A stretch of DNA of 64,000 nt, from contig NZ_LT607803.1 in assembly GCF_900090195.1 (NCBI RefSeq), positions 248,001-312,000 of the forward strand. The letters run 5' to 3'. Below the pieces are notes generated by a model. It was not told the origin of the DNA and did no database searches. It saw nothing but the letters and a program-made list of their open reading frames with translations. Each line of letters opens with the position of its first letter. Position 1 is the first letter of the stretch. Below are positions 17,514 to 37,589 of this stretch, piece after piece. The translations under genes were made by a program, and so were the position numbers. The DNA comes from Variovorax sp. HW608 (lineage in GTDB: Bacteria; Pseudomonadota; Gammaproteobacteria; Burkholderiales; Burkholderiaceae_C).

Positions 17514-18458
17514 CTAGAGCATCGTCGAAAGTTCCGGCACAGCCGTGAAGAGGTCGGCCACGAGACCGTAGTCGGCCACAGAGAAGATAGGGGCTTCCTC
17601 GTCCTTATTGATCGCCACGATCACCTTGGAGTCCTTCATGCCGGCCAGGTGCTGGATCGCGCCGGAAATGCCCGCTGCGATATAGAGCTGCGGCGCCACG
17701 ATCTTGCCGGTCTGACCCACCTGCAGGTCGTTGGGTGCATACCCAGCGTCCACCGCGGCGCGGCTCGCGCCGACAGCGGCACCAAGCTTGTCCGCCAGCG
17801 GCGTGATCACTTCCTGGAACTTCTCCGCGCTTCCCAGAGCGCGACCACCAGAGACGACAATCTTGGCGGCCGTGAGCTCTGGACGGTCATTTTTGCTTAC
17901 TGCGCGGCTCACGAAGACGCTTCTGCCGTTGTCGGCCACTGCCAGCGCGGATTGGACCGAGGCGCTACCGCCTGTGGTTCGAGCAGCATCAAAGCACGTG
18001 GTGCGCACGGTGATCACCTTCTTTGCATCTTTCGACTGAACCGTCGCGATGGCATTGCCGGCATAGATCGGCCGCTCGAAGGTGTCGGCGCTCACCACTC
18101 TGGTGACCTCGCTGATCTGCGCTGTGTCCAGCAGTGCCGCTACGCGGGGGGCGGCGTTCTTTCCGCTGGCCGTAGCGGGAAACAGGATGTGGCTGTAGTC
18201 GCTTGCGAGCGCGAGGACCTGAGCTGCCAGGTTCTCTGCCAGCCCTTCTGAGAGGCTCTGGCCATCGGCATGGATGACCTTGGTGACTCCTTCAACACCT
18301 TCCGCAGCGTGGGCTACGGAGACGGCGCCCATGCCCGCGACCAGCACATGCACCTGGCCGTCAGTGAACAGGCTGACCTCTCGAGCTGCAGTGATTGCGT
18401 TCAGCGTCGCTGATTTCAGGGTTTGGTTGTCGTGTTCTGCGATGACGAGTACGGTCAT
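17514..18458 (-). CDS. etfA: Electron transfer flavoprotein, alpha subunit
   Basis: 314 aa, the usual EtfA length. The N-terminal domain opens with [15 protein letters not shown]; the C-terminal FAD-binding domain carries [47 protein letters not shown] and [12 protein letters not shown], the residues that hold FAD and AMP in the alpha/beta heterodimer. ETF takes electrons from flavin dehydrogenases and passes them to ETF-ubiquinone oxidoreductase. It is third in an operon with a DAO-family FAD protein and etfB, so this pair probably serves that enzyme rather than only beta-oxidation. A ribosome site (AGGA) lies 7 bases before the ATG. Confidence 0.95.
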
Positions 18459-18493
18459 GTTGCTTGTCCTATCCTTTGAATTCCAAATGGTCC

Positions 18494-19243
18494 TCAGATG
18501 ACCTTGGCTTCGCTCCTGAGCTTCTCAACCAGCGCGGCCACATCGGGCACCTTGATGCCTGCAACGCGCTTGGGCGGCTCAGCGACTTTCAACGTTTTCA
18601 GGCGCGGCGCAACATCCACGCCCAAGTCGGCCGGGGTGACGATGTCCAACTGCTTCTTCTTGGCCTTCATGATGCTGGGCAGCGTGGCGTAGCGTGGTTC
18701 GTTCAGGCGTAGATCGGTAGTGATCACCGCAGGAAGGCTCAGAGAGACGGTTTCCGAACCGCCGTCGACTTCGCGAGTGACGATGATCTTGTCGCCGGCG
18801 AGCTCAAGCTCGGAGGCGAAGGTGGCTTGCGGTAGGTCAGCCAAGGCCGCCAGCATCTGGCCGGTCTGGTTGGCATCGTCATCGATGGCCTGTTTGCCGA
18901 GGATGACCACCTGGGGGCGCTCTCTCTCGACCAGCGCCTTGAGCAGTTTGGCCACAGCCAGAGGCTGCAGCTCCTCCGAGGTCTCCACCAGGATGCCGCG
19001 ATCGGCACCGATAGCCATGGCGGTTCGCAACGTCTCCTGGCACTGCGCGACGCCACAGGAGATGGCGACCACCTCAGCAACTACGCCCTTTTCCTTTAAC
19101 CGCACCGCCTCTTCAACCGCGATCTCATCGAACGGGTTCATGCTCATCTTGACGTTGGCAATGTCTATTCCGGTACCGTCACCCTTCACGCGAACCTTCA
19201 CGTTGTAATCGACGACCCGTTTGACAGCGACAATGATCTTCAT
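18494..19243 (-). CDS. etfB: Electron transfer flavoprotein, beta subunit
   Basis: 249 aa, normal for EtfB. It starts [17 protein letters not shown] and shows the signature [16 protein letters not shown] and [17 protein letters not shown] (adenine-nucleotide binding loop), plus the C-terminal recognition region near KAKKKQLD. The ATG at 19243 was chosen as the family start; an in-frame start 7 codons upstream is not conserved. It lies 36 bases after the FAD oxidoreductase gene and 35 before etfA. Confidence 0.95.
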
Positions 19244-19279
19244 TTGCTTAATGCACTTTCTCACTAGAGATGAATTGGT

Positions 19280-20467
19280 TCAGGACACTGCCCCAGAGCC
19301 ATACTTGCCCAGCAACAGCTCGCCTTTGGCGAAGCGGTCGATTGCATACGGCGCAAGCGGGACATCAGTTGCCATGCCTAGCGCTGTCTGCGCCAACACA
19401 CGGCCGACCATGGGCGACAGCTTGAAGCCGTGCCCCGAGAAGCCGAATCCCACCACCAGGCCTTCGACACCTGGGACTCGACCGAGCACCGGATTCCAGT
19501 CCGGCGTAACGTCGTACACACCAGTCCACGACGATGCAAGTCCGGCCGCGTCGTAGGCGGGGAACCGTTCAGCAACCTGGGCGCCGATCTCCGCGACGTA
19601 GTCCAGTGGCACATCGCCCTGTTCGGTCTCAGAAAGGTTCACCTTGTCGCCAACCACGCCTTCGCTGACGAGCATCTGCTTTCCGCCGTAGCTGCGGCAA
19701 TACAACATCCCTGGCGACGAAAGATCCTTGAAAACCGGCATCGCGAACGTGTAAGGAGCGTCGGCGCAATCGAGAGCGAGCACGGCATGCCGCTCAGGTA
19801 CGACGGGCATCGTTTGCCCCACCCATTTCGCCAGGTCCGCGGTCCAAATGTTCTGGGTACTAACCAATGTGTCGCAGGCGAAATCTCCCGCCGAGGTCGA
19901 CACACCTACGACGCGCGAGCCCTCGAGGACCAGCTTGTTGACGGTGACGCCTTCTCGGACCTTTACACCTCCGCGGCGTGCGCCCTTCGCGAAGGCGGCG
20001 GCAACCATGTACGCATCGGCAAACCCTGCGTCGGGTTCGTACCCGATCAGCGCTGCATCATTGAACGATGCGATAGGTAGCAACTGCGAGGCTTGCCCCC
20101 GATCGAGATACTCGACGCGAACGCCCTGCTCCTCTTGCTGCTTAAGGGATGCACGCAGCGGCTCCAGCTTCTCGCCTTCGGACGCGCTGATCAGGTAGCC
20201 GCACTTGACGAGCCCGCAGGATGCTTCGGCATCGCCGACGTATTCCTCGAAGTTCGTGAAGACGTCCCAGGAGCGGCGGGCCAGCTCCACGTTCTCGCGC
20301 ACCGAATAGTGCGTGCGAAGGATGCCAGACGACTGCGACGTCGTGCCCGAGCCAATCGTCTCGCGCTCGAGAAGCAGGACGTTCTTCGCGCCGAGCTTCG
20401 AAAGATGAAAGGCCACCGACGCACCGATGACGCCAGCACCAATAACAATCACGTCAAATTTTTCCAA
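19280..20467 (-). CDS. DAO-family FAD-dependent oxidoreductase (sarcosine/gamma-glutamyl-amine dehydrogenase-like)
   Basis: 395 aa. The N-terminal Rossmann motif is VIVIGAGVIGASVAFHLSKLG followed by the acidic residue of ELLERE-type strands (LLLERE) and SGTTSQSSGILRTHYS, typical of glycine oxidase, sarcosine oxidase beta and PuuB-like enzymes. The C-terminus has TPDWNPVLGRVPGVEGLV and GFSGHGFKLSPMVG, closing the FAD site. A TTG start at 20467 is inferred: AGGAGA lies 5 bases upstream and the protein then begins LEKFDVIVIG, as expected. Co-directional etfB-etfA immediately downstream implies that electrons go to ETF rather than to oxygen. The substrate is probably a secondary or gamma-glutamylated amine. 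Divergently transcribed from the M24 hydrolase gene across about 210 bases that hold a LysR-type box. Confidence 0.85.
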   Translation of the reverse strand: MEKFDVIVIGAGVIGASVAFHLSKLGAKNVLLLERETIGSGTTSQSSGILRTHYSVRENVELARRSWDVFTNFEEYVGDAEASCGLVKCGYLISASEGEKLEPLRASLKQQEEQGVRVEYLDRGQASQLLPIASFNDAALIGYEPDAGFADAYMVAAAFAKGARRGGVKVREGVTVNKLVLEGSRVVGVSTSAGDFACDTLVSTQNIWTADLAKWVGQTMPVVPERHAVLALDCADAPYTFAMPVFKDLSSPGMLYCRSYGGKQMLVSEGVVGDKVNLSETEQGDVPLDYVAEIGAQVAERFPAYDAAGLASSWTGVYDVTPDWNPVLGRVPGVEGLVVGFGFSGHGFKLSPMVGRVLAQTALGMATDVPLAPYAIDRFAKGELLLGKYGSGAVS

Positions 20468-20608
20468 GGGAGTCTCCTGTTCGATGCGAGGAGTCTTGAT
20501 CCGTTTGCAAGCGATGCGCAGAACATAAGCAGAACCGATGCTGTGCAAAAGCGGCTCGTGATCGAGCGCAGAATGAGCGCGGCGCGGCCGCCTGAGCGGT
20601 GGTTGCTG

Positions 20609-20622
20609 ATCCAAAAGATAAG
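20609..20622 (+). promoter_or_regulatory. Shared 14-bp motif, copy 1 (ATCCAAAAGATAAG)
   Basis: Identical to 22973-22986 and one base different from 22942-22955. It lies in the divergent promoter between the DAO-family dehydrogenase and the M24 hydrolase and overlaps the dyad at 20619-20631. Confidence 0.55.
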
Positions 20623-20631
20623 CGGTGCTTA
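20619..20631. promoter_or_regulatory. Candidate LysR-type box TAAGC-N3-GCTTA
   Basis: TAAGCGGTGCTTA is a perfect 5-bp dyad with a 3-base centre and meets the T-N11-A rule for LysR-type regulators. It is 148 bases upstream of the dehydrogenase start and about 48 upstream of the M24 start. The LysR regulator at 25216-26217 is the nearest candidate. Confidence 0.5.
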
Positions 20632-20677
20632 AGTTGTGTTGGGCACCGGCGGCCAGGGAAAGAATCGGCGCACGGCA

Positions 20678-21862
20678 ATGTCAAAACCAAGGAGCCAAGA
20701 GATCGTGAACAACCCTGCGAATGACGGCATGGACTTCCCCGCAGAAGAGTATCGAAATCGCCTGCAGCGAACCCAACAGGAGATGGAGAAGCAAGGACTC
20801 CCGCTGCTGCTGCTGCACCAGCCGGAAAACATCCTTTATCTGAGCGGGTTCTATACGACGGGGTATTTCTCGTACCACGCCTTGGCCGTTCCGAGCCGTG
20901 GCGACCCGGTGCTGATCGTGCGCGATGTGGAAGTCCCGGCAGCCAAGGACTCATCCTGGATCAAGAGCTACACGACCTACGCAGATGCGCCCGATCCACT
21001 TCCAGTGTGGCTCGACGCAGCACGTCGCGCGATCGAAGGTCTCGGATTGGGGGGCGGTCGCATCGGAGTCGATGAACACTCATGGTTCATGACGGTGGAG
21101 CGCTGGAAGATGCTCCAAGCCGTACTTCCACATGCGAACGTGGTCGCTGAGCCCAGAATCGTAGACCACCTTCGACTGGTCAAGTCACCGCGTGAGATCG
21201 AATACTTGCGCGGAGCCGCGCGCTGCGTCGAGGCGGGCGTGCAAGCGGGAATAGACGCCATCGCACCGGGCGTTATCGAACGTGACCTCGGCGCCGCCGT
21301 GTTCAGTGCGATGGTGAAAGCCGGATCCGAGATGCCTCTGAGTGGAATCATCACGTCGGGGGCTCGAACAAACCTGATCCATGGCGACTACTCGGACCGG
21401 CGTCTCGAGCCCGGGGACAACGTTTACTTCGAGGTCAGTGGGATCTACCACAAGTACTGGACACGCATCATGCGCACCGCCACTGTGGGTCCCGCAAGCT
21501 CCGAGCAACTGCGCGTGGCAGAAACAATCTTGCGAACCCAGAGCGAGGCGATCGCTCTGATGCGACCTGGAACGCCGGCCTCGGTGATCGATCGGGCGTG
21601 CCGTGAACCGATCCTTGCAAGCGGCCTGAAGGACAGCTATACGAACCGCGTCGGCTATTCGCTCGGCCTCAACTATCGACCCTCTGCCGGTGAATTCATC
21701 CGTGAGTTTGTGCCAGGCGTGGATTGGATTCTCCAATCCGGGATGGTCTTTCACATGCTCATGATGGCTGCAGGAATGGGCTTCAGCGAGACAATTCTGG
21801 TGACGGACAATGGTGCCGAGCGCCTGACCAGCATGGAGCGCAAGCTCTTTTCAAGTCAATGA
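20678..21862 (+). CDS. M24-family hydrolase, ectoine hydrolase (DoeA)-like
   Basis: 394 aa from the ATG at 20678 (MSKPRSQEIV); an in-frame GTG at 20636 is less likely. Creatinase-like N-terminal domain (EEYRNRLQRTQQEMEKQGL, PENILYLSGFYT) and pita-bread C-terminal domain (VKSPREIEYLRGAARCVEAG). Where metal-dependent M24 peptidases have D..D in their ligand strand, this reads VYFEVSGIYHKYWTRIMRT, so both Asp ligands are gone. From memory, this pattern together with GYSLGLNYRPSAGE and a Met/Phe-rich C-terminus (FHMLMMAAG) resembles the ectoine hydrolase DoeA/EutD branch, which opens a cyclic amidine or hydrolyses C-N bonds without the usual two-metal site. It overlaps the C26 gene by four bases (ATGA). 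A likely cytosolic catabolic enzyme; the exact substrate is not known. Confidence 0.82.
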   Translation: MSKPRSQEIVNNPANDGMDFPAEEYRNRLQRTQQEMEKQGLPLLLLHQPENILYLSGFYTTGYFSYHALAVPSRGDPVLIVRDVEVPAAKDSSWIKSYTTYADAPDPLPVWLDAARRAIEGLGLGGGRIGVDEHSWFMTVERWKMLQAVLPHANVVAEPRIVDHLRLVKSPREIEYLRGAARCVEAGVQAGIDAIAPGVIERDLGAAVFSAMVKAGSEMPLSGIITSGARTNLIHGDYSDRRLEPGDNVYFEVSGIYHKYWTRIMRTATVGPASSEQLRVAETILRTQSEAIALMRPGTPASVIDRACREPILASGLKDSYTNRVGYSLGLNYRPSAGEFIREFVPGVDWILQSGMVFHMLMMAAGMGFSETILVTDNGAERLTSMERKLFSSQ

Positions 21863-22581
21863 CAACGAGCACGAATATGAAACCCATAATTGGTGTCGTC
21901 AGCAACTTCGACCTTGAAAAGGACGGCTACTTCTGTTTCGCCCACTATGTCCGCGCGATCGAAGAGGCCGGTGCACTTCCCGTCATCTTGCCGTACGTCA
22001 ATGCGCATGACGTGAGCCCAATGCTCGACTTCATTTCTGGACTCGTGTTAACCGGTGGCGGCGATTTTCCGACCGAGCTCTATGGCGCTGACCCGCACCC
22101 GGCGGTTCAAAGGATGATTCCCGAGCGCGACAAGTTCGAATTCGCGCTCGCCCGGTCAGCACTCGACCGATCCATGCCGATTCTCGGCATCTGTCGAGGG
22201 ATGCAGATCCTCAACGTCCTCGGTGGTGGAACGATCTATCCGCATACGGTCGATGAGGTCACGACAGCAATCGACCATCGCGACGGCACGCCATTGGACC
22301 AATCGGTACATGAAGTTCAAGTGGAGCCCAACACCCGCCTCTGGCAGCTCTGTGGCATGCCCACCAAGTCCTTCCGGGTAAATAGCTATCACCACCAGGC
22401 CGTGAACCGAGTCGCCCCGGGATTCGTCGTTTCTGCTCGTGCCGACGATGGTGTCATCGAGGCGATCGAGGCCCCTGACAGCCCCTTCCTTGTCGGTGTG
22501 CAGTGGCACCCCGAATGGATGTACGAGGCAGAGCCCGCCTGCCGGCAGCTGTTTGACAACTTCGTGAATGCCTGCAAGTGA
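21859..22581 (+). CDS. C26-family gamma-glutamyl hydrolase (PuuD-like)
   Basis: 240 aa, class I glutamine-amidotransferase fold. Nucleophile C112 in ILGICRGMQILN, and H217/E219 in VQWHPEW complete the triad; TGGGDFPTELYG and SYHHQAVNRVAPG are typical of the PuuD (gamma-glutamyl-GABA hydrolase) and YvdE-like family. The ATG at 21859 overlaps the M24 stop codon, so translation is coupled; a second ATG at 21877 is also possible. PuuD releases glutamate from gamma-glutamylated amino acids in the putrescine pathway; here there is no glutamate-polyamine ligase (PuuA) in the window, so the acyl donor step is either elsewhere or different. Confidence 0.88.
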   Translation: MTTSTNMKPIIGVVSNFDLEKDGYFCFAHYVRAIEEAGALPVILPYVNAHDVSPMLDFISGLVLTGGGDFPTELYGADPHPAVQRMIPERDKFEFALARSALDRSMPILGICRGMQILNVLGGGTIYPHTVDEVTTAIDHRDGTPLDQSVHEVQVEPNTRLWQLCGMPTKSFRVNSYHHQAVNRVAPGFVVSARADDGVIEAIEAPDSPFLVGVQWHPEWMYEAEPACRQLFDNFVNACK

Positions 22582-22941: not shown

Positions 22942-22986
22942 ATCCAAAACATAAGAGCGTATTTCTGGGGCGATCCAAAAGATAAG
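22942..22986 (+). promoter_or_regulatory. Tandem copies 2 and 3 of the shared 14-bp motif
   Basis: ATCCAAAACATAAG at 22942-22955 and ATCCAAAAGATAAG at 22973-22986, 31 bases apart (about three helical turns, so on one face of the DNA). The second copy also forms the left arm of an inverted repeat CCAAAAGA-N8-TCTTTTGG at 22975-22998. They lie about 180-220 bases upstream of the CocE-like hydrolase gene and match the copy in the divergent promoter at 20609. Confidence 0.55.
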
Positions 22987-23162
22987 TTCTTCTTTTGGGT
23001 TTCGCGAGTCACCAAAGATGCACAAAAGAATCGCGTACTCCATGCGAGGGTGTGGAGGGCAAACGCACCCAAGTCAACGACCGGATCTGAAATGGCATCA
23101 GCCCCGCAAGGTCGGAAATCTTGGGTCGCATTGGATTTTCAATGAACAAGGAGACTGCGAAC

Positions 23163-25163
23163 ATGAGTGAGATGACCAAGAAGACAGCGATCATCAGTGA
23201 GCCTGCGGGCGATGAGAGAGACTCCGCCCCAGTGGAGACGCGCGCAAGCATTTCTCGCCGGCAAGTACTCAGGACCGGTATGTACGCGGGGTTTGGCACG
23301 CTTGCGTCAGCGGGAATCGCCGCTTGCGGCGGCGGGAGCGACGCGGCGGCAGCGCCCGCATCGGCAGCGCCCGCATCGGCAGCAGCTGCAGCTGCTCCAG
23401 ACGCCCGCGCTGAAGCAGCAAAGCCCAAGGTTGGCTCCATCTTCGACTTTGATATTAACGCTCAACCTGCCGCAGGGACGTACCAGGTCGGCCCGCTGGA
23501 ATCGGTGTATGTGCCGATGCGCGATGGCGTGAGGATCGCCCTGGACATTGTCCGCCCATTGGGTGACGCGTCCAACACCAAGCGCGGAACCATTCTGATG
23601 ATGACGCGCTACTGGCGCGGCACAAAGGGATCGACGTCAAACTCAGTTGCAACCGCGTTCGTGCCGTATGGCTATGCCGTGGTGGTTGGAGACGTCCGCG
23701 GCACCGGTGCTTCATTCGGTGTGGGGGTCCATGAGCGCACGAGGGACCAAACCAAGGACTTCGATGAAGTGCTGACCTGGATTGCCGCGCAGGGCTGGTC
23801 CAACGGCAGCGTGGTCGGCTACGGCCATTCCTCCCCCGGCAACATGGCGGAGTTCATGGCAATCTTTGGCAATCCGGCGCTCAAGGGCATCATGCCGGAG
23901 TCCGACGACTACAGCGGCTATCTAACCATCTTCCCGAACGGGGTTCCCAATACCGTCACGTGGCCGGCCTGGAGCGACGGTATCTACCAGCAAGACCACA
24001 ACATCGGCGGCTCCGGTGTCCGTCCCGTCGGAACCGGACCGGCGGCCGAGGCCCTCCTCGCGGCTGCCGTGGCTGAGCACACTGCGGCGCCTCTCTGGGA
24101 TGGGTTGAAGCAGATCACGTACATCGACGATCAGCCCACAACCTGGGGCGGAGACACCATCGACGTTGGATACATTCAGAACTACGTCGAGCAGGTCAAT
24201 CGCTCAAACACCCCAACGCAATACTGGAGCGGCTGGTGGGACGCCGCCACGCCGGAAGGCTCAGCCCGCCGCTTCGTGCAGATGACGAATCCGCAGAACG
24301 TGATCATCGGCCCGTGGCCCCATGGCTACAACAAGCCCTATGATCCCCTGAACCCCACCAAGACGGATTTCCTTCCGGCAACGCCGGGGCAGAAGGCTCA
24401 GGTACTCCACTTCGCGGACGTGTGCCTCACCGGCCAGGCTGCCGGCCAGCAGGGGAAGGTCCTCCACTACTACACGCTCGGAGAGGGCGTTTGGAAATCA
24501 ACCAGTTCGTGGCCGCCCAAGGCCAAGTTCAACCGCCTCTACATGGGCAGCGCCTTCCGCCTGAACTCAAATCCTGAGGCCACGAGGGGCTCGGACTCGT
24601 TCCAGGTTGACCCCGAACTGGCAGACGTAGCCAACGATCGATGGACCAGCACCAGCGGTACCAGGGTGAATTTTGGAGATCGGCGACAGTTCGATGCCGC
24701 CCGGGTCGCGTACACAAGTGATCCGTTGACGGAGGACACCGAGATCACCGGACACCCCGTCGTCCACTTGAACGTGAGCTCCACTCGCGAGGACGGAAAC
24801 TTCTTCGTCTACCTCGAAGGCGTAGCCCCGGACGGATCTTCCTGTTATCTCACCGAAGGTCTGTTGCGCGCCTTGCACCGCAAGGTAGACCACTCTTCAC
24901 CCTTCGCCGCGCTTGGCCCGCAGCACAGCTGTTTGAAGCGCGACGCCGAACCGCTCGTTCCGGGCCAATCTGCCATCTTGGAGTTCGCCTTGCAGCCCAT
25001 CTCCGCACTTCTTCCGAAGGGATACTGCGTCAGGGTCGTTCTTGCCGGGAGCAACAAGACCAGATTCGAAATGGTGCCCGCCGACGGCACACCGCCCCTG
25101 CTGAATTTCAATCGTGGTGGCGGAAACGGTTGCTACATCGACCTGCCGATTGTCCAGCGGTGA
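23163..25163 (+). CDS. Exported CocE/NonD-family hydrolase
   Basis: 666 aa. The ATG at 23163 follows AAGGAG at a 9-base spacing and is preferred over the ATG at 23142. The N-terminus has a twin-arginine-like SRRQVLRTG, a hydrophobic stretch and then GIAACGGG, a lipobox, so it may be a Tat-exported lipoprotein; an Ala/Pro-rich linker follows. The alpha/beta-hydrolase domain shows VPMRDGVRIALDIVRP, VVGDVRGTGASFG and the nucleophile elbow GYGHSSPGNM (S223), with IGPWPHGYNKPYDP carrying the catalytic His; the C-terminal jelly-roll is typical (ITGHPVVHLNVSSTREDGNF). CocE/X-Pro dipeptidyl-peptidase relatives cleave esters, amides or N-acyl bonds. The canonical GxSYxG elbow is altered to GHSSPG. It may release the substrate imported by the ABC transporter nearby; that is inference. 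Confidence 0.87.
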   Translation: MSEMTKKTAIISEPAGDERDSAPVETRASISRRQVLRTGMYAGFGTLASAGIAACGGGSDAAAAPASAAPASAAAAAAPDARAEAAKPKVGSIFDFDINAQPAAGTYQVGPLESVYVPMRDGVRIALDIVRPLGDASNTKRGTILMMTRYWRGTKGSTSNSVATAFVPYGYAVVVGDVRGTGASFGVGVHERTRDQTKDFDEVLTWIAAQGWSNGSVVGYGHSSPGNMAEFMAIFGNPALKGIMPESDDYSGYLTIFPNGVPNTVTWPAWSDGIYQQDHNIGGSGVRPVGTGPAAEALLAAAVAEHTAAPLWDGLKQITYIDDQPTTWGGDTIDVGYIQNYVEQVNRSNTPTQYWSGWWDAATPEGSARRFVQMTNPQNVIIGPWPHGYNKPYDPLNPTKTDFLPATPGQKAQVLHFADVCLTGQAAGQQGKVLHYYTLGEGVWKSTSSWPPKAKFNRLYMGSAFRLNSNPEATRGSDSFQVDPELADVANDRWTSTSGTRVNFGDRRQFDAARVAYTSDPLTEDTEITGHPVVHLNVSSTREDGNFFVYLEGVAPDGSSCYLTEGLLRALHRKVDHSSPFAALGPQHSCLKRDAEPLVPGQSAILEFALQPISALLPKGYCVRVVLAGSNKTRFEMVPADGTPPLLNFNRGGGNGCYIDLPIVQR

Positions 25164-25215: not shown

Positions 25216-26217
25216 TCAGGCGTCTGACGGCGGAAGCAGAAGCGCGTTCTGCTCAAGGTTCAAACTTGTTGCGATCTCCACCGAGATTTCCTTGCGCACA
25301 GCGATCCTGACTACGTCTCGGATCTCGTTGGGAAGCCTGCCCAGTTCGCCTTGCCGATAGGCCAAATAAAACGTGCGACTCATGTTTGGATAGGGTCGCC
25401 CTTGGCGGGAGAACTGGGACAGAGGCAATATGCGAATTCCGGACGCGAACTGTCTTGACTGCCAAATGCAAATTGGAGTGCTCAACGCAAAGCCCATGCC
25501 GCTTGCGACCAAGCTGAGAAGCGGGTCGGTCGTATCGAACTCGCACGTACGCTCGAGACCGTCGCCGTTGCTCATGAGGTATTCGTCGATCTGCTGGCCG
25601 ATTAGCGATCTCGAGCTGTATCGAATAAACGGGAGATGCCGATTCAATTCGAGCATCGATCCCAGCCTGTTGACCTCGAAGGTCGCCGGCAGTACCACGT
25701 AGAAGTTCTCCGAGAACAGCGGCGTGCGAGAGATTCCCGGTATGGGTGAAACTCCGGTAGTTACCGCGAGGTCCAGTTGTCGCCTTTCGATCTGGGCTTC
25801 GAGGGCCGGGGTGATCCCGGACCACATACGGATTTGGTGCGAAGTACCTGAAAGCGCCTTGATGAGAAGCGGGCCGACCGTCGCGGCAAAAGAATCGACA
25901 CAACCGAATCTGACAACAAGGCGCTTGGCACGACTGACGTTCCGAACACTCTCGGTCATCTGGTCTGCGCGCGTGAGTAGGTCCTTCGCGTGTTCATAGA
26001 GGCGCTGCCCGGCGGCCGTCGGCTGCGCCGGCCGAGTCGAACGATCGAGCAAGGGCGTCGCGAAAACAGTTTCGAGCTGCTTGAGGCGCTGTGAAACCGC
26101 AGCCTGGGAAATGTGAAGGACGTGGGCTGCTTCTGACACGCTGCCTGCTTCGATCACGACGACCCAACTGGACAGCAGGTCCCAGTCAGGGCGCGACTTC
26201 TCGTTGGGAAAGTTCAT
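25216..26217 (-). CDS. LysR-family transcriptional regulator
   Basis: 333 aa. The winged HTH is at the N-terminus (WVVVIEAGSVSEAAHVLHIS, QAAVSQRLKQLE), followed by the periplasmic-binding-like effector domain (LVVRFGCVDSF, LDLAVTTGVSPIPG, LVASGMGFALSTP). It is the last gene of the minus-strand transporter/hydrolase operon, 49 bases after the N-formylglutamate amidohydrolase gene, and ends close to the convergent CocE gene. The T-N11-A dyads at 20619 and 32795 are plausible targets, which would make it the local regulator; not demonstrated. Confidence 0.92.
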   Translation of the reverse strand: MNFPNEKSRPDWDLLSSWVVVIEAGSVSEAAHVLHISQAAVSQRLKQLETVFATPLLDRSTRPAQPTAAGQRLYEHAKDLLTRADQMTESVRNVSRAKRLVVRFGCVDSFAATVGPLLIKALSGTSHQIRMWSGITPALEAQIERRQLDLAVTTGVSPIPGISRTPLFSENFYVVLPATFEVNRLGSMLELNRHLPFIRYSSRSLIGQQIDEYLMSNGDGLERTCEFDTTDPLLSLVASGMGFALSTPICIWQSRQFASGIRILPLSQFSRQGRPYPNMSRTFYLAYRQGELGRLPNEIRDVVRIAVRKEISVEIATSLNLEQNALLLPPSDA

Positions 26218-26266
26218 TCAGGTGGCCGAAAATTGGGGCCCAGTATATGTGGACCCGTTAGCGGGA

Positions 26267-27064
26267 TCACTTGATGACCTGGTCCAGCGCTCCCTCGATG
26301 ACGGATCGAACCGTGGGCGAGACGCGATCGGCTAGTTCGCCCCGCCATCGGAACGGCGCGCTTTCCTCCATGTAAGTGGACTGCGCGAGTTCGAGTTGAA
26401 TCGCATGGACGCCTGCATCGGGCTGCCCATACCGGCGCGTGATGAAGCCACCCTTGAACCGGCCGTTCAGCACCCACGAATACCCCGTCTTCTTGATAGC
26501 CGCAATAGCGCCAGACATCACCCCTTCATCACAGCTATGTCCATCGGCGGTCCCAAAATTGAAGTCGGGGAGGCGGCCGGAAAAAAGTCTGGGCAGTAGG
26601 CTTGCGATGGAATGAGCTTCCCACAACAGGACCTTTTGGTGCCGACCGCGAAGTCGCGAAATCTCTGTCCGCAGGGCGTCGTGGTACGGGCGCCAATACG
26701 CATCCACCCGACGCTCGATCTCGTCTCCGCTTGGAACCTTGTCATCGACATAGATCGCCTCACCCCGAAAGGTTTCAGTGGGACAAAGTGAAGTCGTGAT
26801 CAACCCGGGGTACAAGGATTCACCGCTCGCTGGCCTGTTCAGGTCGACGACGTAGCGCGAAATCGTCGCATTCAACACCGTTGCATTCAGTTCGTCGGCA
26901 AATCCGTAGAGCCTGTCCAGGTGCCAGTCCGTATCGACCAACTCCAGAGCGGCCGGCGTGTAGAGTCGACGTAGATCCTCCGGGATCTCCGTTCCAAGGT
27001 GCGGTACGGAGATGATCAGGGGTGCATCCCCGCGGCGAATTTCGAAACAAGGGACTTTGCTCAT
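26267..27064 (-). CDS. hutG: N-formylglutamate amidohydrolase family protein
   Basis: 265 aa, the full family length. Signature segments: PLIISVPHLGTEIPEDL, DTDWHLDRLYGFA, RYVVDLNRPASGESLYPG, LLWEAHSIASLLPRLF (metal-binding His) and GGFITRRYGQPDAGVHAIQLELAQSTYM. Family members hydrolyse N-formyl-L-glutamate to glutamate and formate in the last step of the HutF/HutG histidine route. No hutH, hutU, hutI or hutF is in the window, so its substrate here may be another N-formyl or N-acyl amino acid. It begins 4 bases after the MmgE/PrpD stop, in the transporter operon. Confidence 0.88.
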   Translation of the reverse strand: MSKVPCFEIRRGDAPLIISVPHLGTEIPEDLRRLYTPAALELVDTDWHLDRLYGFADELNATVLNATISRYVVDLNRPASGESLYPGLITTSLCPTETFRGEAIYVDDKVPSGDEIERRVDAYWRPYHDALRTEISRLRGRHQKVLLWEAHSIASLLPRLFSGRLPDFNFGTADGHSCDEGVMSGAIAAIKKTGYSWVLNGRFKGGFITRRYGQPDAGVHAIQLELAQSTYMEESAPFRWRGELADRVSPTVRSVIEGALDQVIK

Positions 27065-27068
27065 CGTC

Positions 27069-28427
27069 TTACCTGCTCTCTACAACGCTGTTCAACGCTT
27101 CAAACAGCTCCTGACTGGGGCAGTTTCCTGCCAGCAATGCTTCTAGGAAATGGGCGGGTAGCCGCACTTCGTTCCGCTCTGACAGTCGGGTCGCTTTCTC
27201 CAGCAACGATTGATCGGGCAATGGATTGTCAAAATCGCCAACAGGAGAGATGACCAATTTGCTGACAACACCGCGCGTCGAATCAAGATGGACGCGCGCC
27301 GGTACCTTGAGTGGGTACATGGCGTCGAGCTGATCGTCCACCTTCACATGCACCTTCTCGGCAAGTTCGACGATGCGCGGGTCCGCGATCAGGGCATCCA
27401 GGTCTAATTGAAGCAATGCGTCGGCTCCGAGCATGACTCCAACAGCGACCGCAAACGGAACACTAAACTGCGCAGAGATAAGGTCCACAGGACAAGGCTG
27501 GTTCGGCAGAGTTGCCGCCCGTGTGAACGTCTCGATCGAGATGCCGCGGACGACCGCATCGTGCGGAAGCTCGCGAATCAGATCGATTGCCGCATCCACG
27601 GCGCTATGCATCCAACGGCAACACGCGTACCGCTTGAAATATGTCGTGTCGATGAAGAAGCGACCTGGATTGGAGCTAGCATCCCCCCAGTCCCGGTACA
27701 TGCCTGGGTTTGAGAACGAACTGTCGTAGCCACGCATGCCCACCTCCGCCAATCCAGCAGCGCTGAATCCAGCGATCACCGACCACGGAATTCCCTCTTT
27801 CAGGTCGCCGCCTCGAAATCCGGAATGATCCGCGGCCAGCAGGTTGGGCGCATGCGATTCAGCGATGGTCAGCGCATGTTGGGTCCGCGTTGCATCGAAC
27901 CCTCTTAGCTTCGCGACAGCGGCGGCCACACCAATTGCTGACCACCGGCCTGTCGCGACAGTAGCCTGAGCAGCGGCACTGCGCATGCTGGCGCAAGCAA
28001 CGCCGACTTCATATCCCGCGACAATCGCAAGCAGCATCTCCTGGAGCGATGAGTTCCTTTGCTGTGCCTCGGCAAGCACGGCCGGAATGATTGCCGCGCC
28101 GGGATGCCCCGCCGCCACGCGATGCCCATCGTCGAGATCGAGGATAGAGGTTGCAGTCGCATTCACATATGCAGCGCCGACGGGCGACAAGCAGCGCTCA
28201 CTGAACCATACCCCGCTCGACCCCGCCGGGAATGTGAGTTCGGCCCAACGCAGCGCCATCGATGTGGCAGGATGGGCTTGGCCGGCCGCAGCACAGCCCA
28301 CCGCATCGATCAGGCACCGGCGAGCGGCGTGGAGGGTGCTTGCAGGGACGTCCGCGGCATCCAAGGTCACGAGGCGAGAAGCCAATCGCGCGGAAACTTC
28401 GTTTGACATTGTTGAAATTTGAGGCAT
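27069..28427 (-). CDS. MmgE/PrpD family protein
   Basis: 452 aa from ATG 28427 (MPQISTMSNEV; a second ATG at 28409 is also possible). The sequence matches the all-helical MmgE/PrpD fold: ARRCLIDAVGCAAAGQ, ATATSILDLDDGHRVAAGHPGAAIIPAVLA, AIVAGYEVGVACA, GRWSAIGVAAAVAKLRG and FKRYACCRWMHSAVDAAI. PrpD dehydrates 2-methylcitrate, MmgE acts on 2-methylcitrate/citrate, and other relatives are iminodisuccinate epimerase or cis-aconitate decarboxylase, so the family is best read as dehydratase/isomerase/decarboxylase of carboxylic acids. It is in the transporter operon, far from the methylcitrate genes at 57-62 kb, so a role in propionate use is not favoured. Confidence 0.88.
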   Translation of the reverse strand: MPQISTMSNEVSARLASRLVTLDAADVPASTLHAARRCLIDAVGCAAAGQAHPATSMALRWAELTFPAGSSGVWFSERCLSPVGAAYVNATATSILDLDDGHRVAAGHPGAAIIPAVLAEAQQRNSSLQEMLLAIVAGYEVGVACASMRSAAAQATVATGRWSAIGVAAAVAKLRGFDATRTQHALTIAESHAPNLLAADHSGFRGGDLKEGIPWSVIAGFSAAGLAEVGMRGYDSSFSNPGMYRDWGDASSNPGRFFIDTTYFKRYACCRWMHSAVDAAIDLIRELPHDAVVRGISIETFTRAATLPNQPCPVDLISAQFSVPFAVAVGVMLGADALLQLDLDALIADPRIVELAEKVHVKVDDQLDAMYPLKVPARVHLDSTRGVVSKLVISPVGDFDNPLPDQSLLEKATRLSERNEVRLPAHFLEALLAGNCPSQELFEALNSVVESR

Positions 28428-28459
28428 CAGTAGGGTCTGGTTACCAGCGCGACTCCGAT

Positions 28460-30253
28460 CTAATTGGAAGGTCGACCACCCGTTTTTCGAATCGCTTCGA
28501 TGCCAACATGAACGAGAACCGTAAACGCGATCATCAGACTTGACACAGCAGCAATCGTCGGAGTGATCTCTTCGCGGATCCCTGACCACATCTTGACGGG
28601 GAGCGTCATCGTGTCCGGTCCGCTAACAAATAGCGACAGGACGACCTCGTCGAACGAATGCAGGAAGGCGAAGAAGCCTGCCACGATCAACGCCGGACGG
28701 ATGAGGGGCAGGACGATCCGTCTAATGGTCACGATGCGCGAGGCACCTAGACTTGCGGCTGCATGTTCAAGGCGAATGTTCTGGGACTGAAGGCTCGCTG
28801 CGACGATGAGAACGACCAGTGGAACGGCCCCAACGCTGTGGGCCATCACCAACCCAATGGATGTATTCACAAGGTGCAGCTTCGCAAAGAGGAAATAGAG
28901 AGCCACCGCGCTGATGATGACCGGCACGATCATCGGTGCAAGGAGAAGTTGGTATCCGATCCGACGCATTCGAGGGCTAGCACGCACGAGCGCCATTGCA
29001 GCCGCCGATCCAACGGCCAGGCTCACGAGCGCCGCAGCGATGGCGACCCCCAGGCTCTGCCACGTCGCCGAGACCCAAGCATCGCTGCTGAGATAGTCGC
29101 GGTACCACTGCAACGAGAGGCCCGGGGGCGGGAAGTCCAGAAACCGCGACGAGCTGAACGAGATGGGCACGATGATCAGAATTGGACTGACCAGGAACAA
29201 GGCGACGATCAGACTGATTCCTCGCAAGATCGCTCCGCCAGAAGGCAAGCTGTCAGTAATGACTGCTGGAACCGGGACCGCACGCCCAACGGCGCGCGCA
29301 GCCGAAGTCACTAGATCGACCAAACGAACGTAGGTGCTTGTCGGGTTGCGAACAGACGTGCTTGCCAAGACACCAGTGGTGTGTTGTGAGCCAAGGAGTT
29401 TTTCAATGCCGACAAAACGGTTGGACACCGTGTAGAACACGAGCGTGATCGCCAGGAGCACCGTCGCCACCGCGGCCGCAAGAGGCCAGTTGAGCGTGCC
29501 ATTCACCTGCGTCTCGATCAGCATCGGGAGCGTAATTGACTTCGGACCCCCGAGCAGCGCCGGGGTGATGTAGAAGCCGAGGGCGAAGACAAAGACCAGC
29601 AGTCCAGCAGCAGTGACACCCGGAGCGCTTAACGGAAAGTACACCCGCCAGAAGTTCTGCAATGCTGAGGCGCCCAACGAAGCGCCAGCGCGAGACAAGG
29701 TGGATGGAATGCCCTTCATCACGCTCATGAGAATCAGCACCGTGAAGGGCATGAGGATGTACACCATCGCCACCACGACGCTGAACTGGTTGTAGATCAA
29801 GTCGACTGGCCGCTCGGTGATTCCGATCCGCATCAAGAACTGATTGATTAGGCCAAAGCGGCCGAGAAGCACCATCCATGCGTAGGTTCGAACGAGATAA
29901 CTCGTGAAGAACGGCAACACAACGGCAAACAACAAGGCCTTCGCGACCCAACTGCGTGCGCTGACAATCCAGTGTGCGAGCGGATAGCCGAAGAGAAGGC
30001 AAACGGCTGTTACGCTGGTCGCGAGCGTGAAAGTGCGCGCCAAAATGATCCAGTTCGTCCGGTCGAAGAGGAACTCCCGGTAATGCACCAGGGTCGGTTC
30101 GGGATCAAAGAAGCTGAGGGCAAGAAGGCCGACGAGCGGAACAAAAAAGAAGATCCCCAGCAGCACTGCAGCCGGCGTGAGCAAAAGCGATGTTTCGCGG
30201 TTTCGCGGCGGCCGCGCGGCGGCCGTCTTCATCGAGAGGGATGGAGCAAGCAT
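28460..30253 (-). CDS. ABC transporter permease, fused PotB-PotC type
   Basis: 597 aa, about twice a normal permease. Two complete spermidine/putrescine-type permease modules are joined in one chain: module 1 (about 25-300) with an EAA-like loop SRAGASLGASALQNFWRVYFP, and module 2 (about 345-590) with EHAAASLGASRIVTIRRIVLP; the linker of about 45 residues is polar. Each module has about six hydrophobic segments. The ATG at 30253 starts one base after the stop of the binding-protein gene; longer in-frame starts would overlap it. Together with the ATPase and binding protein it makes a polyamine/quaternary-amine class importer, a fused heterodimer in one polypeptide. Confidence 0.9.
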   Translation of the reverse strand: MLAPSLSMKTAAARPPRNRETSLLLTPAAVLLGIFFFVPLVGLLALSFFDPEPTLVHYREFLFDRTNWIILARTFTLATSVTAVCLLFGYPLAHWIVSARSWVAKALLFAVVLPFFTSYLVRTYAWMVLLGRFGLINQFLMRIGITERPVDLIYNQFSVVVAMVYILMPFTVLILMSVMKGIPSTLSRAGASLGASALQNFWRVYFPLSAPGVTAAGLLVFVFALGFYITPALLGGPKSITLPMLIETQVNGTLNWPLAAAVATVLLAITLVFYTVSNRFVGIEKLLGSQHTTGVLASTSVRNPTSTYVRLVDLVTSAARAVGRAVPVPAVITDSLPSGGAILRGISLIVALFLVSPILIIVPISFSSSRFLDFPPPGLSLQWYRDYLSSDAWVSATWQSLGVAIAAALVSLAVGSAAAMALVRASPRMRRIGYQLLLAPMIVPVIISAVALYFLFAKLHLVNTSIGLVMAHSVGAVPLVVLIVAASLQSQNIRLEHAAASLGASRIVTIRRIVLPLIRPALIVAGFFAFLHSFDEVVLSLFVSGPDTMTLPVKMWSGIREEITPTIAAVSSLMIAFTVLVHVGIEAIRKTGGRPSN

Positions 30254-30254
30254 G

Positions 30255-31373
30255 TTAGGAGACCGCCCACTTGGTCCAGCGTTCGACAAGCACTTCGGTA
30301 TTGGTCTTGCCGGAAGCATTTTTCGCCTCCCAGAAAGCCGGATCACGGAAGAATTGCTTTTCCAGATTTGCAGGTGAGGTTGGCAGTAGAGCTGCCACTT
30401 TCGGTTCGATGTACTTGAAGGCAGCGCGGTTCATCGGACCGTAGAAAATGATGTTGTGCAGCCGAGCTTGCGCCTGTGCGGTCGCCATGTACGCTGCAAA
30501 GCGCATGGCCAAAGCTCGCCTCTTGGTGCCTTTGGGGACGACCCAGTAGTTCGGCGAGAGCTCGCCTTCGTCCCAGTGGTAGTCGACGGGTGCGCCTTGC
30601 GCCTTGAGCGCTTCCAATCGGCCATTGAACGCCGAACACATCGCAACCTGTCGATCCGACAGAAGCTGGCCCGGCTCGGCGCCCACGGTCCAGAACTTCG
30701 TGATCTCGGCTTTGATCTTGTCGAGTGATGCGAAGGCCTTGTCGAAGTCGATCGGGTAAATCTTGTCTTTCGGCACACCGGCGGCGAGTAGTGCGAACGC
30801 GATCGATGTCGGGTCTCCGATTGAGCCGGCCCTCAGTGACCGCGGTCCCGGAAACCTGCGAACGTCCCAGAACTCGGCCCAGGTGTGCGGGCGAGGCTTG
30901 TTTGCCGGGTACTCCGCTGTCGAGAACCCCATCACCGTGCTGAACACGTATGAACCGACGCCATATTTGTGCTTGGCTTCCGGCAGCAGGTTGTCCATCG
31001 TTTCCTTGTCGAACCCGCCATAGTCGATTTCTTCGAGGTACTTGGGCGCATCAGGCCGGAACGCGGCGCTGGGGAGCTCTACCAAGTCCCACTGGACGTC
31101 GCCACTGTCCACTTGCGCCTTCAGCTTCGCGTCCGTGGCAGGGGAGACATAAGTGATCTTGATCCCCGTGTCGCGCTGGAACGGTTCGACGATCGCTTTA
31201 CGGAAGGCCTCTTCATAAGAGCCGCCACCCGAGACGACCACCAGCGTTGATGTTTGGGCACGCAAGATGCCCGGCGCTCCAAGCGAGAGCGCAGCGGTGC
31301 CGGCTACAGCGCCGAATTGCACCAGGGCCTTGCGGCGTGTCGGCAAGCCAGAGTTGGTTGTTTCGTGCGTCAT
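30255..31373 (-). CDS. ABC transporter substrate-binding protein, polyamine/iron type
   Basis: 372 aa. An N-terminal twin-arginine-like signal (TRRKALVQFGAVAGTAAL, cleavage near ILRAQ) is followed by a PotD/FbpA-like binding domain: LVVVSGGGSYEEAFRKAIVEPF, VDSGDVQWDLVELPS, GFSTAEYPANKPRPHTWAEFWD and YWVVPKGTKRRALAMRFAAYM. This places it in the extracellular solute-binding family of spermidine/putrescine and related amine transporters. The ligand cannot be read from the sequence. It lies 12 bases after the ATPase gene. Confidence 0.9.
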   Translation of the reverse strand: MTHETTNSGLPTRRKALVQFGAVAGTAALSLGAPGILRAQTSTLVVVSGGGSYEEAFRKAIVEPFQRDTGIKITYVSPATDAKLKAQVDSGDVQWDLVELPSAAFRPDAPKYLEEIDYGGFDKETMDNLLPEAKHKYGVGSYVFSTVMGFSTAEYPANKPRPHTWAEFWDVRRFPGPRSLRAGSIGDPTSIAFALLAAGVPKDKIYPIDFDKAFASLDKIKAEITKFWTVGAEPGQLLSDRQVAMCSAFNGRLEALKAQGAPVDYHWDEGELSPNYWVVPKGTKRRALAMRFAAYMATAQAQARLHNIIFYGPMNRAAFKYIEPKVAALLPTSPANLEKQFFRDPAFWEAKNASGKTNTEVLVERWTKWAVS

Positions 31374-31385
31374 GGACCTCTCTCC

Positions 31386-32573
31386 TTAGGAGTTCAACGT
31401 GGGGATACGATTCGCTGCAACGCTCCTGTGCAATGAAGCGGATTCGGCTTGCGGGCTCTCGACTTGACTGGCGCTTGCGGATTGCGAATCGTCGCAAAGT
31501 AGCCGCCCATCTCGGGCATTCCAGCCAACTCGCACCGTCTCACCGATTTGCATCGTCGGTGCGAGTGCATGGCGTTGCACGGCCACAGTGACGTGCACCG
31601 GGCTCGCCGCACGCAAACAAACGCGGTACTTGACGACATTTCCCCAATAGACCGCGTCCTCGACTACAGCATCAAACTCGTTGTCCGCTCTTGCTCCGTG
31701 CACGAGGGGAATGACCTTTTCGGGACGAATCATCAGGGTCATGGACGCTGCCCGGTCCTCGACGCCTTGCCACGTTGCACACACCTGCAGTCCGCCGACG
31801 TCGAGCAGTGGAGCGTTGTCCGCTTCGCCGATCAGGCGGGCATCGAGAAAATTGGACTCACCAATGAAGCTGGCGACAAACCGGGTCCGAGGAGCCTCGT
31901 AGATTTCTTCCGGGCTTCCAACCTGTTCTACCTTCCCATTGTTCATCACCACGATCCGATCGGACATCGTGAGCGCTTCGCTTTGATCGTGCGTGACAAA
32001 GACCATCGTCGTGCCGAGCGACTTTTGGAGCCGCTTCAGTTCGACCTGCATGTGCTCTCGCAGCTGCTTGTCGAGTGCGCCGAGAGGCTCATCCATGAGA
32101 ACGACCCCCGGACGGAAGACGAGCGCGCGGGCCAAGGCAACCCGCTGCTGCTGTCCGCCGGATAGTTCATGAGGCATGCGCCCTTCGTAACCGCCGAGCT
32201 GCACGAGGCTGAGCGCTTCCTTCACGCCGGCTCGAAGCTCGGAACCGGACATGCCGCGCATCTTGAGCGCGAACGCCACGTTCTCGAAGACTGAAAGATG
32301 GGGAAACAGCGCGTAGTTCTGAAAAACCACGCCGATATTGCGCTTGTGGACCGGCAGCCCCGTAATGGGCCGATCGCCCACGAAAATCTTGCCAGCAGTC
32401 GGCGTTTCAAAACCGGCCACCATCATCAACGTGCTCGTCTTGCCAGAGCCGCTGGGCCCGAGAAAGGACACGAACTCACCGGCCTCGATCTGAACCGAAA
32501 CTTCGTCGACAGCCCGCGCGCTGCCATACAGCTTGGATAGGCGCTCTAGCCGCAGCGATTCACCCTTGAGCAT
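31386..32573 (-). CDS. ABC transporter ATP-binding protein, PotA type
   Basis: 395 aa. Walker A GPSGSGKTST, Q-loop VFQNYALFPHLSV, signature LSGGQQQRVALARALV and Walker B VVLMDEPLGALD are all intact. The C-terminal 150 residues form a TOBE domain (IGESNFLDARLIGE, MIRPEKVIPLV), typical of polyamine, sugar and iron importers. It is first in the six-gene minus-strand operon ATPase, binding protein, fused permease, MmgE/PrpD, amidohydrolase, LysR regulator. The upstream 350 bases contain an operator-like dyad. Confidence 0.94.
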   Translation of the reverse strand: MLKGESLRLERLSKLYGSARAVDEVSVQIEAGEFVSFLGPSGSGKTSTLMMVAGFETPTAGKIFVGDRPITGLPVHKRNIGVVFQNYALFPHLSVFENVAFALKMRGMSGSELRAGVKEALSLVQLGGYEGRMPHELSGGQQQRVALARALVFRPGVVLMDEPLGALDKQLREHMQVELKRLQKSLGTTMVFVTHDQSEALTMSDRIVVMNNGKVEQVGSPEEIYEAPRTRFVASFIGESNFLDARLIGEADNAPLLDVGGLQVCATWQGVEDRAASMTLMIRPEKVIPLVHGARADNEFDAVVEDAVYWGNVVKYRVCLRAASPVHVTVAVQRHALAPTMQIGETVRVGWNARDGRLLCDDSQSASASQVESPQAESASLHRSVAANRIPTLNS

Positions 32574-32770
32574 GTGAACCCCTTGTGATGTTCACCAAAG
32601 CTGCGCCGCTTGCCGGGGCGCAGTTGCCTCGCAAATTTGCAGCGACCAGGGAGCCGCCACACTGGACACCGGCGAGCCAGGTGCCGCCATGGGGGCGAGC
32701 GAGAGAAGGTTGTGAATAGGTCATTGATAGTCTCCGGGCATCATCGTCATGGCTGGGGGACGCAGCGCCG

Positions 32771-32888
32771 TTAGCATCAGCGCCGCTTCGTATCAGCATC
32801 AGAATATGTGATGCTAGTGGCCGGGCGGCCGGCCGTCCTGAAGCGGATCGCGGGCGCGCTGATGCAGATCTCAATCAGCGGTGATGCT
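32771..32888. promoter_or_regulatory. Operator-like cluster of TGATGC half-sites
   Basis: A dyad AGCATCA-N7-TGATGCT at 32795-32815, which also obeys T-N11-A (T32799, A32811), is flanked by further half-sites AGCATCA at 32773-32779 and TGATGCT at 32882-32888. The cluster sits between the divergent ATPase-operon and HutD genes and is a plausible binding region for the operon's LysR regulator or another dimeric repressor. Confidence 0.5.
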
Positions 32889-32926
32889 GCACTCGCAGGC
32901 GTCCGGAGGACGCCACCATTCGTTCG

Positions 32927-33508
32927 ATGAAGGGACCATTTCCAATTCACAGCATCCCGAGCCAACCCTGGAAAAATCAGGCAGGAACAACGCGGCAAAT
33001 CGCATCCGGACAGGGCTGGAGGGTGAGCGTGGCCGCAGTTGGCGCGGACGCCCCGTTTTCTGTATTTCGGAATACTCGGCGTCAGTCAATCGTGATCGAA
33101 GGCGACGGCATACAACTGCGCTGCGGAGACAGGTCTGTCGAACTCTTGCCGCATGTGGTTTCCGGCTACGCGGGCGACATCGAGTGGCAGGGCCACTTGC
33201 GCGGTAGACCCGCGACCGTGCTCAATGTCATCTGCGAGAAGGATGTTGCTGAGGCAGAGATCTTTGTCGGACGGGCAGTGGAGGTCTGCGCGGACCGTCA
33301 GGGGGCCATCGTTGCGCTTCCAATCTGCTGCTCAATGTCATATGTGCTTGAGTCGGGGGAGGCTGGTGTCGCTTCGCGCGGCACGGCCTTCGTGTGCGAC
33401 GATCGCGAGTTCATGGCTTGCCACGCGGTCGCAGAATGGACAACAGGCATTGGTTACATCATCGCCGTTCGCCTGACCCCAGCAACTAACGGCGCTCAAG
33501 GTGATTGA
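32927..33508 (+). CDS. hutD: HutD family protein
   Basis: 193 aa. The family core is visible: PWKNQAGTTRQIASGQGWRV (K-N-x-x-G-x-T-R-x-I-A, first position of the cupin-like pocket), then ADAPFSVFRNTRRQSIVIEG, LLPHVVSGYAGDIEWQG and ATVLNVIC (usual LNVM). HutD is a small cupin-like protein found with histidine utilisation genes and proposed to sense or limit the pathway. Here it is divergent from the ABC/HutG-like operon, with no other hut enzyme in view. The ATG at 32927 has no strong ribosome site; a start further downstream would cut the conserved core. Confidence 0.8.
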   Translation: MKGPFPIHSIPSQPWKNQAGTTRQIASGQGWRVSVAAVGADAPFSVFRNTRRQSIVIEGDGIQLRCGDRSVELLPHVVSGYAGDIEWQGHLRGRPATVLNVICEKDVAEAEIFVGRAVEVCADRQGAIVALPICCSMSYVLESGEAGVASRGTAFVCDDREFMACHAVAEWTTGIGYIIAVRLTPATNGAQGD

Positions 33509-37570: not shown

Positions 37571-37589
37571 GCCGACCCAAGGAATCGCC

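Follow-up and report, generated by a model that had tools for sequence, protein, structure and literature searches.

A conserved oxidation core in Variovorax sp. HW608 is a candidate alternative to N-methylglutamate dehydrogenase

The genome of Variovorax sp. HW608 is a single contig of 7.73 Mb (NZ_LT607803.1), of which bases 248001-312000 were analysed here (64 kb, hereafter the window). We studied a cluster in this window encoding a DAO-family FAD dehydrogenase, an electron transfer flavoprotein (ETF), the N-formylglutamate deformylase HutG and an ATP-binding cassette (ABC) importer. A preliminary description had presented the cluster as an amine or amide catabolic locus. Open reading frame (ORF) analysis combined with Pfam and NCBIfam searches confirmed every gene that it named, with its family and coordinates. 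The genes are listed below with the part of the locus to which each is assigned (core or feeder).

17514..18458, minus strand: etfA, ETF alpha subunit (core; PF01012 and PF00766)
18494..19264, minus strand: etfB, ETF beta subunit (core; PF01012)
19280..20467, minus strand: DAO-family FAD dehydrogenase (core; PF01266, 219.7 bits)
20678..21862, plus strand: M24-family DoeA-like hydrolase, metal-site-less (feeder; PF00557; ORF from 20636, ATG at 20678)
21859..22581, plus strand: C26 gamma-glutamyl hydrolase-like protein (feeder; PF07722, 209.6 bits)
23121..25163, plus strand: CocE/NonD hydrolase (TIGR00976, 260.6 bits; linkage to the system not supported)
25216..26217, minus strand: LysR regulator (core; PF00126 and PF03466)
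26267..27064, minus strand: HutG, N-formylglutamate deformylase (core; TIGR02017, 341 bits, cut-off 278.75)
27069..28427, minus strand: MmgE/PrpD-family protein (feeder; PF03972 and PF19305; ATG at 28427)
28460..30253, minus strand: fused two-domain ABC permease (feeder; PF00528; PotB- and PotC-like halves)
30255..31373, minus strand: periplasmic binding protein of the gamma-aminobutyric acid (GABA)/opine type (feeder; assigned from the nearest solved structures)
31386..32573, minus strand: ABC ATPase, PotA-type (feeder; TIGR01187, 374.5 bits, cut-off 355.6)
32927..33508, plus strand: HutD/Ves family protein (core; weak Ves match, NF008488, 31 bits, cut-off 292)

The etfA, etfB and DAO genes lie on the minus strand, and the M24 and C26 genes diverge from them, DAO and M24 sharing one intergenic region. 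The probable DAO start is the TTG at 20467; the mechanical ORF extends to 20614, and the database form has 395 amino acids. The M24 and C26 genes overlap as ATGA (21859-21862), the coupling proposed earlier. The ATPase, binding protein, fused permease (ATG 30253 is one among several possible starts), MmgE, HutG and LysR genes form a head-to-tail run with short gaps on the minus strand, which agrees with the single run described previously, and hutD diverges at its far end. The best explanation for the locus is a conserved oxidation core (DAO, etfBA, HutG, HutD and LysR) joined to an importer/hydrolase feeder (ABC importer, M24, C26 and MmgE).

Conservation was analysed in 38 stretches of DNA with a DAO of at least 60% identity, the window included. 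The loci came from the window genus, its order, another genus and plasmid records. The stretches measured 12-29 kb (64 kb for the window); two same-genome pairs were each counted together, and L043/L084, L044/L080 and L081/L082 are near-duplicates within the set. L066 and L067 (DAO 53% and 52%) fell below the cut, and L065 ends at a contig end. The DAO was present in 7 of 101 genomes of the window genus and at least 10 of 399 genomes of the order (own genome included in both), in 29 of 43 species of another genus (15 of these 29 genomes were fetched; two of the 29 had internal stops) and in 11 plasmid records (10 fetched). Up to four candidates were scored per genome in the large draws, so the counts from those draws are lower bounds. 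A phylum-wide draw of 398 genomes (E <= 1e-110) gave the DAO in the window genome only, among the candidates scored, and the named relatives of the protein are Burkholderiales.

The neighbours of DAO in the 38 loci were HutG (34), LysR (32), and etfB, etfA and HutD (28 each), followed by an ETF-quinone oxidoreductase (11), GlnT (9), GlxD (9) and PutA-like proteins (5). Of the four loci without HutG at the cut-off, two lie on symbiotic plasmids and carry a HutG that is divergent, a third is truncated at a contig end, and the fourth is L077. Window etfB shared 81-89% identity with etfB of same-genus DAO loci (partial matches among them), LysR shared 67-77% with its counterparts beside HutG in five same-genus loci, and HutD shared 36-42% with those HutDs of DAO loci for which the window protein was the best-matching query. 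We regard the core as a genuine, conserved oxidation module that apparently has no name yet. Window-type M24, C26, binding protein and CocE were each found at one of the 38 loci, namely the window. The ten families co-occurring as one set, as the preliminary description had envisaged, was not observed; two sub-modules, core and feeder, did recur. CocE, which carries a Tat-like signal and a lipobox by reading of its sequence, had been counted as part of the system and drops out of it.

Two other arrangements were seen among these loci. In L073/L074 (G461, same genus, DAO 78%), the core is dispersed among genes for aldehyde dehydrogenase (ALDH), dihydrodipicolinate synthase (DHDPS), MR/MLE, FAD-linked oxidase, AMP-binding, PutA and ABC proteins, a set that we take to resemble hydroxyproline-type catabolism. 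In L043 and L084, the symbiotic plasmids of P. phymatum and P. phenoliruptrix, the ETF-quinone oxidoreductase upstream of DAO matches as three fragments only and therefore looks decayed.

Nine DAO loci carry genes resembling gmaS-mgsABC (glnT-glxBCD), five of them together with an Amt transporter. In its accessible portion, PMC3160333 relates glnT-glxBCD to gmaS-mgsABC of the N-methylglutamate pathway, and the accessible portions of PMC3160333 and PMC5023235 treat glnT-glxBCD and soxBDAG as parts of this pathway; that of PMC5023235 gives methylene-tetrahydrofolate and glutamate as the predicted products of mgdABCD. HutG was found in 9/9 of these loci, and mgdA, mgdB and mgdD in 0/9 at the cut-offs used. 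As a control, we analysed 18 GlnT loci with SoxD nearby (mgd-type loci). These contained mgdB, mgdC and mgdD in 18/18 cases and mgdA, mgsA and mgsC in 17/18, and HutG, ETF, HutD and ETF-quinone oxidoreductase gave no match in any of the 18, even at E <= 1e-5. The only DAO matches were found at 17 of the 18 loci, at the mgdA place in L129 (the one mapped). DAO and MgdA-type proteins share 23-27% identity, so the DAO is a remote relative of the subunit that it would replace. At the genome level, GlnT was present in at least 55 of 399 genomes of the order. Among the 39 genomes with GlnT of at least 63% and without DAO, SoxD lay 3.4-3.8 kb from GlnT in 32, on another contig in 5 and was missing from 2; in the 3 genomes with both DAO and GlnT, it was absent from two and on another contig in one (SoxD near GlnT, DAO+ vs DAO- genomes, Fisher p = 0.01). 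The core and mgdABCD are mutually exclusive in these comparisons. The core is best read as substituting for N-methylglutamate dehydrogenase with an ETF-linked system that would pass through N-formylglutamate.

The properties of HutG are consistent with this reading. The window protein scored above the curated TIGR02017 equivalog cut-off (341 vs 278.75 bits). A tree of 63 HutG sequences (36 DAO-linked, 27 from loci without DAO) placed the 27 non-DAO proteins apart from every DAO-linked sequence (support 0.92); one clade comprised 32 of the 36 (support 0.86), the window HutG grouped with the DAO-linked proteins, and those of the two symbiotic plasmids lay far out. HutI adjoins 24 of the 27 non-DAO HutGs and 0 of the 36 DAO-linked ones. 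Between the 32 clade members and the 27 non-DAO sequences, 78 columns had the same residue in both groups at a conservation of 95% or more, and 2 were conserved with differing residues. The window HutG keeps 78/78 of these residues (70/78 in L050 and L051), so its substrate is very likely still N-formylglutamate. By this residue comparison, HutG of the core very probably still cleaves N-formylglutamate, the two symbiotic plasmids excepted. The absence of hutH, hutU and hutI, pointed out earlier, holds for this locus; a separate hut operon lies elsewhere in the genome, about 80-90 kb away, with genes for an aromatic amino-acid lyase, urocanase, HutD, an amidohydrolase and a second HutG. Membership of the cluster in the Hut pathway was rejected on both grounds, and the histidine analogy drawn before is not supported.

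The DAO protein is closest to 1y56 chain B, sarcosine oxidase beta chains, monomeric sarcosine oxidase (MSOX) and dimethylglycine dehydrogenase (DMGDH) among solved structures. It reached the cut-off of none of the 25 NCBIfam models listed, and M24 and C26 likewise passed no specific model listed. All 37 distinct DAO proteins aligned have Arg100, Lys398 and Leu315, which correspond to MSOX positions 52, 348 and 265. We take Arg52 and Lys348 of MSOX to be carboxylate-binding and position 265 to be the oxygen-activating lysine; the aligned MSOX chain has Met at this position, presumably a mutant. The oxygen-activating lysine of the oxidase branch is thus not kept (Leu315 in 37/37). Retention of Arg100 and Lys398, with Leu315 at the place of Lys265, fits an ETF-using dehydrogenase of an N-methyl alpha-amino acid. 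A precedent for an uncharacterised DAO-family dehydrogenase acting on an N-methyl amine is PbfC on N-methyl-AEP, according to the accessible part of PMC10590968.

The feeder has a different distribution. The named relatives of M24 belong to Mesorhizobium, Bradyrhizobium, Sinorhizobium, Agrobacterium vitis and Paraburkholderia phenoliruptrix, and Mycolicibacterium has a distant homologue; the rhizobial homologues share 66-76% identity with it. Three of the six rhizobial loci fetched (L008, L010 and L011) carry the ATPase, binding protein, permease, M24, C26 and MmgE in one direction. Their importer, M24 and C26 share 63-80% identity with the window's (C26 63-71%), and MmgE only 35-37%, which suggests that the window and rhizobial MmgE may belong to different subfamilies. 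L009 has importer and M24, then no C26 or MmgE, and L006 and L007 have M24 and MmgE only, or with a permease fragment. None of the six contains a DAO above 25% identity or a HutG match. In L009 (Mesorhizobium loti CJ3sym), an M24 match lies on each side of one importer, the first being cut by the stretch end. No other genome among the 101 of the window genus has this M24 above 36% identity. The feeder was therefore probably acquired by the window genome and attached to the core. A parallel arrangement occurs on the P. phymatum and P. phenoliruptrix symbiotic plasmids, where a 72% DAO, HutD and etfBA adjoin a HutG-like gene, an importer, an amidase and another M24. In metagenomic data, DAO P0010 (85%) and M24 P0123 (78%) both have a longest contig of 5,898 bases, a hint that the two may form a second DAO-M24 pair on one contig.

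The importer had been assigned to the polyamine class. The ATPase is of the PotA type and the permease halves are PotB- and PotC-like; the binding protein is nearer to GABA- and opine-binding proteins (GABA sensor 6dgv, 3rpw, 4eq7, agropine 6hly) and matches PotD weakly. The closest solved relative of M24 is DoeA (6twj, 134 bits vs 64 bits for creatinase), and creatinase-sarcosine chemistry for M24 and DAO, which was considered, is not favoured by these scores. Of the five residues that we take to be the prolidase metal ligands, four are replaced in M24 when aligned to 1pv9, and three in DoeA.

Oxidation through N-formylglutamate is the simplest account of a DAO, an ETF and an intact N-formylglutamate deformylase replacing a folate-linked dehydrogenase. 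We therefore hypothesize that the DAO dehydrogenates N-methyl-L-glutamate, or a close N-methyl alpha-amino acid, and that its electrons pass via the dedicated ETF to ETF:quinone oxidoreductase. The N-methyl carbon would be taken via a carbinolamine to N-formylglutamate, a four-electron oxidation that we infer, and HutG would split this product into glutamate and formate. HutD, which we take to be a regulator from work on histidine utilisation, and LysR would tune expression. In relatives, gmaS-mgsABC-like enzymes would supply the substrate from methylamine. In the window, it or a precursor would be imported, and ring opening and/or amide cleavage by M24 and C26 might release it; this chemistry is a guess, and the linkage of the feeder genes rests on the three rhizobial loci. 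We give about even chances to the whole account, in which the core oxidises N-methylglutamate via N-formylglutamate and the feeder supplies a precursor. We put somewhat below even a more ambitious version, formaldehyde-free N-demethylation, in which a single DAO with ETF takes N-methylglutamate fully to N-formylglutamate, a dedicated HutG frees formate, mgdABCD has been displaced in part of the Burkholderiales, and the window couples the core to the import of an N-methyl amino acid precursor associated with plants or nodules, which M24/C26 would open. The earlier order of steps, oxidation by DAO and completion by HutG, is retained for the core, with N-demethylation via an N-formyl amino acid as the likely reaction rather than polyamine oxidation.

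Sarcosine oxidases and DMGDH carry out two-electron oxidations, and the DAO, as their relative, might simply be an ETF-linked dehydrogenase of N-methylglutamate (or another N-methyl amino acid) that releases glutamate and formaldehyde, with HutG and HutD serving for a side product or another purpose. The replacement of mgd is equally well explained in this way. A bystander would however not be expected to be the steadiest neighbour of DAO (34/38), to be missing from 18/18 mgd loci and to keep its full residue signature, and we regard formaldehyde release as possible but doubtful. Another possibility is that two unrelated pathways are simply neighbours, the genus's own DAO-HutG core having an acquired importer/M24/C26 unit of rhizobial type beside it. 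This would agree with the 63-80% identity of the unit to rhizobial proteins, with the core matching the genus and with the lack of an M24 above 36% identity elsewhere in it. HutG and LysR nevertheless continue the importer-MmgE run, DAO and M24 diverge from one intergenic region, and in P. phymatum the same DAO is accompanied by an importer, an amidase, a HutG-like gene and another M24; independent pathways therefore appear improbable. Least probable, and in our view very unlikely, is the original scheme, in which CocE frees an amine, polyamine, gamma-glutamyl amine or ectoine-like ligand; after import, M24/C26 would open this ligand, DAO would oxidise it, and HutG and MmgE would complete the conversion. 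All of its genes are present, and importer, M24, C26 and MmgE are co-directional in three rhizobial loci, but CocE is unlinked elsewhere (1/38), M24 and C26 score far under the DoeA and PuuD cut-offs, the rhizobial loci lack a close DAO and HutG, and the GlnT query found no relative in the genome at E <= 1e-60 (PuuA itself was not searched).

Several observations weigh against the preferred reading, oxidation of N-methylglutamate via N-formylglutamate. No relative of GlnT/GmaS was found in the window genome at E <= 1e-60 (mgsABC were not searched genome-wide), nor was SoxD (PF04267), so that the case for N-methylglutamate as the substrate here depends on relatives with a DAO of 65-73% identity. 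The genome-level count of mutual exclusion comes from just 3 genomes with DAO and GlnT. In one of the nine gmaS-type cases (G082), some 27 kb separate DAO from GlnT, and next to DAO there is a weak mgdC-like match of 32% (L062). Five genomes of one genus (GlnT 59-62%) have neither SoxD nor DAO; two of their loci, L147 and L148 (G273 and G092), also lack mgsA, mgsC and mgdABCD nearby, so these genomes seem to do something else, probably with GlnT relatives that act as another gamma-glutamylamide ligase. L077 (DAO 65%) has no HutG within 20 kb, L094-L098 have no etfBA nearby, like L046 and L063 among the gmaS loci, and P. phymatum and P. phenoliruptrix carry the DAO with a divergent HutG keeping 33/78 shared residues. 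The HutGs of L050 and L051 (G085/G129) join the clade with almost no support (0.06). The core adjoins PutA-like genes in five loci and other ABC transporters in many, so its substrate in vivo may differ; proline-betaine or N-methylproline use was considered, prompted by these PutA-like genes and by the MR/MLE, DHDPS and ALDH genes of G461. We found no literature report of a DAO-family oxidation from N-methyl to N-formyl. No PMC paper treating both N-formylglutamate and N-methylglutamate, and no description of this cluster, was found in the searchable literature, with subscription literature largely outside. A metformin paper reached through HutG concerns, in its accessible part, a formimidoylglutamase, and the accessible parts of a Burkholderia NtrC paper and a HutC paper hold no link to this cluster. 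The earlier suggestion of an undescribed route is partly supported, in that three classical pathways do not fit and no description was found.

Use of methylamine or N-methyl amino acids confronts bacteria with formaldehyde, which they have to handle. If the preferred reading is true, keeping the carbon as an N-formyl group and freeing it as formate rather than toxic formaldehyde would be a new solution. It would also assign a role to an unnamed set of enzymes that is widespread (in one genus, 29 of 43 species have the DAO) and account for hutG genes lying apart from histidine genes, and surveys of methylamine use relying on mgdABCD would overlook such bacteria.

Elsewhere in the window, a 587 amino acid ORF with a weak BamA match is followed by a 2698 amino acid ORF on the same strand (35807-45686), a TamA/TamB-like arrangement by ORF layout. 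An SNF2-type helicase gene lies at 12024-14837; the NCBIfam SCO1167 and ZorD models matched it below their cut-offs.

Compared with known systems, the cluster shares HutD with histidine utilisation and a HutG that keeps the common conserved residues and would be expected to act on N-formylglutamate, whereas it lacks hutH/U/I and the core HutGs are separate in the tree. Like ectoine hydrolase DoeA, the window M24 lacks prolidase metal ligands and has the common motifs around the site, but it reaches only 236.6 bits against a cut-off of 575 (NF038259) and 167.3 against 613 (TIGR02993), and Doe membership was rejected, the ectoine analogy being unsupported. The gamma-glutamyl-GABA hydrolase PuuD belongs to the same C26 family, and its Cys and WHPE motif can be read in the window protein, which scores 133 bits against a cut-off of 266; together with the unmatched GlnT query, this led us to reject Puu membership, and the polyamine analogy is not supported. 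With the sarcosine oxidase family and the ETF-linked dimethylglycine and sarcosine dehydrogenases, the DAO shares its family and the Arg and Lys pair, and N-methyl amino acid chemistry would be expected; it differs in being short (395 amino acids) and gene-linked to HutG. The closest comparison is with the N-methylglutamate pathway: the core adjoins gmaS-mgsABC-like genes in nine loci, where the four-subunit mgdABCD is missing and a single DAO with ETF and HutG is found instead, which would regenerate glutamate from N-methylglutamate. The core is thus a specific candidate for an alternative to N-methylglutamate dehydrogenase.

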